Shown here piece by piece: positions 55,822-58,291 of a stretch of DNA of 64,000 nt. A program made the translations under genes and the position numbers. The stretch is from Candidatus Woesearchaeota archaeon (GTDB taxonomy: Archaea > Nanobdellota > Nanobdellia > Woesearchaeales > DSVV01). Below the pieces are notes generated by a model. It had not been told where the DNA came from. It saw only the letters and a program-made list of their open reading frames with translations, and searched no databases. Every line of letters begins with the position of its first letter. Position 1 is the stretch's first letter. The stretch lies in the NCBI GenBank assembly GCA_016192995.1, contig JACPTB010000001.1, positions 1 to 64,000 of the forward strand, in the 5' to 3' direction.

Positions 55822-55881
55822 GGCTATTAAGAAAAATAGGTGATTTATAAATGTTACGAACAAATTTTCTCTAACGAAAAT

Positions 55882-55889
55882 TTTATAAA
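55882..55889 (+). promoter_or_regulatory. TATA box before tRNA-Ile
   Basis: TTTATAAA about 52 bp upstream of the mature tRNA 5' end, which predicts a ~25-nt 5' leader. Close to the divergent eL21 promoter. Confidence 0.5.
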
Positions 55890-55937
55890 GCATCTCTCGT
55901 CTCTGAAATTCACCATTTAAGACTTCAATGGACCACT

Positions 55938-56093
55938 GGGCCCGTAGCTCAGTCTGGAGTCTTTTTAGATGGACAATTCGAGCGCTAGTCTTATAAGTCT
56001 TTCCTCGAAAAACTAAGTAAGCTAGTGGTCCAGGGTTCAAAGTAATCATTAAAAAAATAATTTGTGTAGATTATGAAATTCCCTGCGGGCCCA
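55938..56093 (+). tRNA. tRNA-Ile(UAU) with three intervening sequences
   Basis: The acceptor stem pairs GGGCCCG (55938-55944) with CGGGCCC (56086-56092), followed by discriminator A. D stem GCTC/GAGC, anticodon stem CTAGT/GCTAG with loop CTTATAA (anticodon TAT), and T stem CAGGG/CCCTG are all present, but three loops are too long. The D loop is 29 nt (about 20 extra), the anticodon loop carries 24 extra after position 37 (about 55997-56020), and the T loop is 45 nt (about 38 extra, with TAATC/GATTA able to pair). Removing them leaves a normal 74-nt tRNA. Archaeal tRNA introns are cut by the splicing endonuclease at bulge-helix-bulge motifs; three in one tRNA are known mainly in Thermoproteales. 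A UAU anticodon for AUA is also unusual among archaea. Confidence 0.8.
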
Positions 56094-56097
56094 TCAT

Positions 56098-56172
56098 GCC
56101 CTGGTAGTGTAGTCCGGCCAATCATACAGCACTTTCGATGCTGTGACCCGGGTTCAAATCCCGGCCAGGGCA
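56098..56172 (+). tRNA. tRNA-Glu(UUC)
   Basis: A full cloverleaf: acceptor GCCCTGG/CCAGGGC, anticodon stem CAGCA/TGCTG with loop CTTTCGA (anticodon TTC), T arm CCGGG-TTCAAAT-CCCGG, discriminator A. No intron. It begins 4 bp after the tRNA-Ile and is probably on the same transcript. Confidence 0.93.
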
Positions 56173-56230: not shown

Positions 56231-56332
56231 ATGAAACGAAGTTCACGAAGATGGAAAAAGAAAAGGCAGATGCGTTGGAAGTGGCAACGTAAACGGATGA
56301 AAAAAGAAAAGCGAAAGAGACTTAAGAAATAA
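56231..56332 (+). CDS. rpl41e: Ribosomal protein eL41
   Basis: A 33-residue extremely basic peptide (MKRSSRRWKKKRQMRWKWQR and on). The RRWKKKxxMRWKW pattern is that of archaeal L41e, one of the smallest ribosomal proteins, which lies at the subunit interface. Usually missed by annotation because of its size. It sits between the tRNAs and the rRNA promoter. Confidence 0.85.
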   Translation: MKRSSRRWKKKRQMRWKWQRKRMKKEKRKRLKK

Positions 56333-58182: not shown

Positions 58183-58291
58183 GGGCCTGTAGCTCAGTCC
58201 GGTAGAGCATCGCCCTTGCATTATGTTGCAAGCGAAAAATTGCATTTCACAAGTGAGGCGGGGGCCTCGGGTTCAAATCCCGACGGGTCCA
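58183..58291 (+). tRNA. tRNA-Ala(UGC) with intron, in the 16S-23S spacer
   Basis: Acceptor GGGCCTG/CGGGTCC, D arm GCTC/GAGC, T arm TCGGG-TTCAAAT-CCCGA, discriminator A. The anticodon loop starts CTTGCA and ends after a 35-nt insertion (58221-58255) at the canonical 37/38 site; the spliced loop is CTTGCAA, anticodon TGC. A tRNA-Ala in this spacer is the usual archaeal arrangement. Confidence 0.9.

Follow-up and report, generated by a model that had tools for sequence, protein, structure and literature searches.

How does a cell come by a working tRNA from a gene with an insertion in each of the three loops, and does it depend on that gene? The question is raised by positions 55938 to 56093 of the window, by which we mean the whole 64,000-nucleotide (nt) stretch analysed here, from contig JACPTB010000001.1 of a Candidatus Woesearchaeota archaeon. 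At this locus an isoleucine tRNA gene with the anticodon UAU, tRNA-Ile(UAU), carries extra sequence in the D, anticodon and T loops. We conclude, with a probability of roughly 0.93, that this is a functional, single-copy gene for an AUA-reading tRNA, with three bulge-helix-bulge (BHB) introns that are spliced by a single EndA endonuclease, after which the exons are ligated. The anatomy of the gene, its BHBs, its uniqueness and conservation, the lack of TiaS and the single EndA gene are all read from genome sequence. Triply interrupted tRNA genes are hereby extended to the DPANN archaea, in a tRNA indispensable to the cell.

Standard searches do not see the gene. Neither ARAGORN, run on the unspliced sequence, nor the Rfam family RF00005 at its cut-off detected it, because of the three insertions; standard tRNA finders can thus miss essential tRNAs in such genomes. 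Excision at the predicted BHB sites yields 75 nt (GGGCCCGTAGCTCAGTCTGGTTCGAGCGCTAGTCTTATAAGCTAGTGGTCCAGGGTTCAAATCCCTGCGGGCCCA) that ARAGORN calls tRNA-Ile(tat), with every stem paired. The acceptor stem and variable loop of this product are identical to those of the intact tRNA-Ile(GAU) of the same genome, which supports the isoleucine identity. A structural scan permitting introns in the three loops scored the window gene at 36.5. Random sequence matched to the window in dinucleotide make-up (4.16 Mb, scanned on both strands) reached 35.0 at best, and nothing in it equalled the gene. Such null scans rule out a chance origin. In addition, a covariance model built from five spliced tRNA-Ile(UAU) orthologs of other genera, with the window sequence excluded, matched exactly 55938-56093 (58.3 bits, E = 3.5e-14). 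The observation of a tRNA-Ile(UAU) with three introns is confirmed. The original prediction had estimated the insertions at about 20, 24 and 38 nt (they measure 19, 24 and 38 nt) and had seen well-paired stems and a normal tRNA of UAU identity in the remainder, as the spliced product bears out.

Table 1. The tRNA-Ile(UAU) locus in window coordinates, with the loci of tRNA genes elsewhere in the genome that carry non-canonical introns (^, predicted cleavage point)
Feature	Position	Strand	Remarks
pre-tRNA-Ile(UAU) gene, four exons and three introns	55938..56093	+	mature 75 nt including discriminator A; CCA not encoded
Exon 1	55938..55957	+	acceptor 5' strand, D stem 5' strand, D loop through G19
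Intron 1, D loop after G19, 19 nt AGTCTTTTTAGATGGACAA	55958..55976	+	BHB core GUCU/GGAC, bulges GG^A and AA^U, inner hairpin GUCU-UUUU-AGAU
Exon 2	55977..55995	+	remaining D loop, D stem 3' strand, anticodon stem 5' strand, C32 U33 U34 A35 U36 A37
Intron 2, anticodon loop 37/38, 24 nt AGTCTTTCCTCGAAAAACTAAGTA	55996..56019	+	BHB core CUUA/UAAG, bulges UA^A and UA^A
Exon 3	56020..56041	+	A38, anticodon stem 3' strand, variable loop, T stem 5' strand, T loop UUCAAA
Intron 3, T loop 59/60, 38 nt GTAATC...GAAAT	56042..56079	+	BHB core UUCA/UGAA, bulges AA^G and AU^U, inner helix UAAUC/GAUUA
Exon 4	56080..56093	+	U60, T stem 3' strand, acceptor 3' strand, discriminator A
Candidate BRE/TATA-like promoter element cgaaaattttataaag	55875..55890	+	~48 nt upstream of tRNA-Ile(UAU); identified by eye
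Intronless tRNA-Glu(UUC)	56098..56172	+	4 nt downstream of tRNA-Ile(UAU)
Non-canonical-intron tRNA loci	L029, L027, L019, L028, L025, L030, L026		Phe, Asp, Asn, Gly(UCC), Cys, Arg(UCU), Gln

All three introns are framed by 3-4-3 BHBs, in which the central helix is fully paired (4/4) and flanked by 3-nt bulges (Table 1). The T-loop motif is a complete hBHBh', with 4/4 pairs in both the inner and the outer helix. In the anticodon motif the inner helix has 3/4 pairs and the outer 4/4, and the D-loop motif has a complete inner helix (4/4) and an outer helix that is weighed below. With canonical 3-4-3 cores predicted throughout, it is the positions of the introns that are unusual, not the motifs.

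We infer the transcription, cleavage and ligation of the precursor, the order of the steps and the quaternary structure of the enzyme as follows. At every BHB a predicted EndA homotetramer would make two cuts, one on each side, in both cases behind the second nucleotide of the bulge. A tRNA ligase, which in other archaea is RtcB, would reconnect the exons to form an ordinary tRNA-Ile(UAU). Before splicing, the elbow bases G18-G19 and U54-A57 would be held in the bulges and helices of the D- and T-loop BHBs, so that the enzyme would have to recognise local BHBs rather than a folded tRNA. Because the elbow could not form before these two introns leave, their removal is predicted to precede any step that requires an elbow. 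The D- and T-loop introns would also leave before the anticodon intron, the order reported for Cyanidioschyzon merolae (PMC9602550).

The proposed enzyme is encoded by a single gene of 182 codons (L031:1240-1788, + strand), which matches PF01974 (E=3e-31) and PF02778 (E=4e-12) in the same open reading frame (ORF). No beta subunit was found, PF01974 having one match in the genome at E<=1; of the 75 relatives that it matches at all, 73 likewise give a single match. Residues 36-182 align with residues 25-171 of the alpha4 EndA of M. jannaschii (1A79), also the product of a single gene of ~180 codons, without a gap over 147 residues, and this alignment shows no insertion corresponding to a CSL/ASL specificity loop. 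The catalytic Y/H/K residues align with those of 1A79 and 3iey_A and are invariant in four genera. A DDEGD segment is co-linear with DADGD of M. jannaschii, at a point where Nanoarchaeum NEQ205 has a 2-residue deletion, and probably represents the L10 loop, self-supplied as in the alpha4 enzyme. EndA thus appears to be alpha4-like and is predicted to form a homotetramer. The original prediction took three introns to imply a broad-specificity endonuclease and recommended a check for the heterotetrameric type; canonical cores, a loop-free EndA and a lone, alpha4-like gene lend this no support.

Several points nonetheless weigh against splicing by such an enzyme. The alpha4 type is listed as having narrow specificity, breadth being tied to (alpha-beta)2 and epsilon2 enzymes, mostly loop-bearing (PMC6379350). 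The M. jannaschii EndA is among those described as narrow, whereas EndA here would serve an intron-rich set with D-, T- and stem-located members. The pairing of non-canonical positions with an alpha4-like enzyme would fit the strict-motif rule only insofar as the motifs are canonical, and the outer helix of the D-loop BHB is imperfect, with 2/4 pairs because nucleotide 21 is bulged. Moreover, the fold of lowest energy for the precursor at 37 C lies at -49.9 kcal/mol, versus -36.4 kcal/mol for the cloverleaf with three BHBs, although that fold nevertheless includes the D-loop BHB. The precursor may need proteins, or splicing in successive steps, in order to fold.

A first alternative is that the introns are real and that the D-loop intron, with its relaxed outer helix, needs a broad-specificity EndA assembly, for example one with a divergent partner unrecognised by Pfam. 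In keeping with this, the solved structure closest to EndA in sequence (3iey_A) comes from Nanoarchaeum, where it forms the alpha part of a heterotetramer and the beta subunit is encoded separately, and relaxed BHBs also occur in two other genera, g4 and g6. However, the Nanoarchaeum beta chain itself matches EndA at 8.6e-17, so a comparable beta gene should be seen by PF01974, which finds only EndA. The acidic DDEGD segment, too, would be expected of an alpha4 enzyme, in which the L10 loop comes from the protein itself. We therefore consider a hidden partner unlikely and favour splicing by the single EndA. The view that a tRNA set rich in introns calls for a heterotetrameric endonuclease, or for one with specificity loops, meets a test case in this genome, whose own set is accompanied by one alpha4-like gene.

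As a separate observation, an RNase Z-like gene (L031:283-1209, - strand) divergently adjoins EndA, here and in genera g2 and g5. The adjacency links two tRNA-processing genes.

A second alternative is that the insertions destroyed the gene, leaving a decayed copy that is not spliced, and that AUA is read by another tRNA. The failure of standard tRNA searches to find the gene would agree with this. But no second UAU tRNA was found in the genome (G000; 1.62 Mb, 16 contigs, 99.6% complete), its only CAU tRNAs are the initiator and elongator Met, with no third, and TiaS was not found in it. AUA, for its part, is common, accounting for 365 of the 1164 Ile codons (31%) in 29 long ORFs of the window; the adjacent ribosomal protein L21e gene alone has three. 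Taken together, these facts make the gene almost certainly functional, and tRNA-Ile(UAU) is almost certainly the sole AUA reader of the cell, needed and obliged to be spliced. All stems are intact, the intact UAU copy that the original prediction named as its refutation was not found in the assembly, and the gene bears no sign of being a pseudogene.

Dispensing with TiaS is not peculiar to this genome. None of 79 genomes of the order has a TiaS match above cut-off, which makes decoding by UAU the usual state there. The description of the UAU anticodon as uncommon in archaea holds for the domain at large, where just 2 of 167 genomes have such a tRNA (PMC6000648), and fails for this order. In Nanoarchaeum equitans and Korarchaeum cryptofilum, tRNA-Ile3(UAU) replaces the agmatidine tRNA-Ile2(CAU) (PMC8450103, PMC6000648). 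The genome here shows the same replacement, with a UAU tRNA present, TiaS absent and no third CAU tRNA. The Korarchaeum UAU gene has an intron (PMC6000648), but neither of these tRNAs is described as triply interrupted.

Conservation among relatives bears further on the fate of the gene. The L21e-bearing contigs of relatives belong nearly all to Candidatus Woesearchaeota or other DPANN, which agrees with the DPANN origin first surmised. All three introns recur at the same sites, beside L21e, in two species of the sister genus g2 (G001/L120, JAGVYW010000012.1; G006/L113, JACRKF010000032.1). Between g1, the genus of the window, and g2 the intron sequences are almost wholly different and the BHB design is kept. 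Indeed, a D-loop core exon base and its intron partner covary, U16-A in the window versus C16-G in g2, with pairing retained. Introns that diverge while their BHBs are conserved speak strongly against a decayed copy, which is left very improbable. Uniqueness and conservation ruled out a pseudogene, and conservation in independent assemblies ruled out an assembly artefact.

Some relatives lack part of the set: genera g4 (L158, L167) and g6 (L209) have the D-loop and anticodon introns, and g5 (L075, L116) has the anticodon intron only. The spliced D and T loops of the window gene match the intronless loops of g5 (AGUCUGG-UUG and UUCAAAU). Extended loops are tolerated in some tRNAs, but the idea that the insertions are retained here and the tRNA works with three enlarged loops is the least credible of all, as the anticodon loop and the elbow would not survive insertions at 37/38 and in the T loop, each insert carries a splice motif, and the g4, g5 and g6 orthologs without a D or T insert have junctions exactly as predicted.

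Splicing of the window gene would take place in a genome rich in tRNA introns. By an inventory that is a lower bound, at least 19 of the ~31 tRNA genes detected carry an intron, mostly at 37/38. T-loop introns at 59/60 with the same UUCA/UGAA core are found in Phe, Asp and Val(UAC) tRNAs; the core is shared because the T loop supplies UUCA, and the recurrence indicates that splicing at such sites is routine here. That of tRNA-Val(UAC) (L024:1493-1679, + strand) is, at 111 nt, the longest tRNA intron seen in the genome. Other non-canonical introns lie in Asn (~53/54), in Gly(UCC) and Cys (D loop) and in Arg(UCU) (anticodon stem, ~28/29), and tRNA-Gln has an insert near position 7-9.

We surveyed 193 genomes of the order with matched sequence patterns (loci L265-L294): tRNA-Ile(UAU) with a 37/38 intron was matched in 105 of them and an intronless one in none. 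In this same set, dozens of genomes gave matches to tRNAs for Lys(UUU), Ile(GAU), Arg and Thr that lack an intron. Deviation from the strict pattern may explain the 88 genomes with no match. The anticodon stem is perfect in 97 of 98 sequences, and at least three of the four BHB core pairs are present in 97 of 98. Beyond what a BHB needs, the 5' part of the intron follows a loose UGRC-NN-YGYUYY-R-NN-CA in about half of 90 introns, a pattern that occurred in none of the composition-matched shuffles. Common descent alone could account for part of this conservation, and no common helix explains it. A conserved internal helix was rejected, since RNAalifold on the 98 sequences returned the anticodon stem only and individual folds vary. 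A cis-acting C/D or H/ACA guide was set aside, the introns (median 30 nt) being judged too short.

In yeast, the tRNA-Ile(UAU) intron is required for pseudouridines 34 and 36 (PMC11408192). A tentative and somewhat doubtful reading of the survey is that the anticodon intron is obligatory in the order because it directs or gates an anticodon modification (e.g. of U34) that prevents the reading of Met AUG, TiaS being lost. If so, the D- and T-loop introns would be later, dispensable gains. The order-wide link between TiaS loss, the UAU anticodon and an anticodon intron never found lost has parallels in yeast, Korarchaeum and C. merolae.

The closest parallel to the window gene is the nuclear tRNA-Ile(UAU) of C. 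merolae, with introns at 12/13, 37/38 and 53/54 (PMC9602550). It is the same tRNA, with three introns in each case and the anticodon intron at 37/38 in both. However, C. merolae is a red alga with a heteromeric Sen-type enzyme, whereas the window gene belongs to an archaeon with a single EndA. The D and T introns, which lie after G19 and at 59/60 in the window gene, differ in position from the algal ones and so were independently gained. Processing intermediates were shown in C. merolae by reverse transcription PCR.

Among archaea, triple-intron tRNAs are known from the Thermoproteales, for example in tRNA-Glu(UUC) of Pyrobaculum calidifontis and tRNA-Pro(UGG) of P. islandicum (PMC4390854). 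These share with the window gene up to three BHB introns per tRNA gene, at non-canonical positions. Unlike it, they are other isoacceptors and come from hyperthermophilic Crenarchaeota with heterotetrameric, CSL-bearing broad enzymes; with Woesearchaeota relatives and a single EndA without CSL, the window gene falls outside that group. The available part of a report on the Asgard Atabeyarchaeia and Freyarchaeia of wetland soil gives more than half of their tRNA genes as multi-intron, many non-canonical, again in archaea outside the Thermoproteales, of another phylum, and describes no tRNA-Ile(UAU) case (PMC11291895). The statement that triple-intron tRNAs are known mostly from Thermoproteales is incomplete in view of the multi-intron tRNAs of Asgard archaea (PMC11291895) and of C. 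merolae (PMC9602550). A literature search of limited coverage found no earlier report of a triple-intron tRNA-Ile(UAU) in DPANN. The window gene is an independently evolved addition to the triple-intron tRNA genes already known.

Elements resembling the candidate promoter (gaaa-n-ttTATA, by eye) lie upstream of orthologous tRNA-Ile(UAU) genes. A 9-nt complementarity between leader and tRNA (TGGACCACT, position -9) is not conserved in orthologs and was dropped. The downstream tRNA-Glu(UUC) is probably co-transcribed with tRNA-Ile(UAU); in the sister genus, the orthologous gene is interrupted in the D loop by an intron of 35 nt. In the relatives with all three introns, the 50-nt anticodon intron of G001 (L120) looks as if an internal stretch of the 35-nt one in G006 had been duplicated in tandem (AACTAAGAAGTTTATGACTAAGA). 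Between tRNA-Glu and the 16S rRNA gene, positions 56231-56332 (+ strand) of the window hold a tiny, strongly basic ORF (MKRSSRRWKKKRQMRWKWQRKRMKKEKRKRLKK), possibly ribosomal protein L41e. Finally, the 16S-23S rRNA spacer contains a tRNA-Ala(UGC) gene with a 35-nt anticodon-loop intron (58183-58291, + strand).
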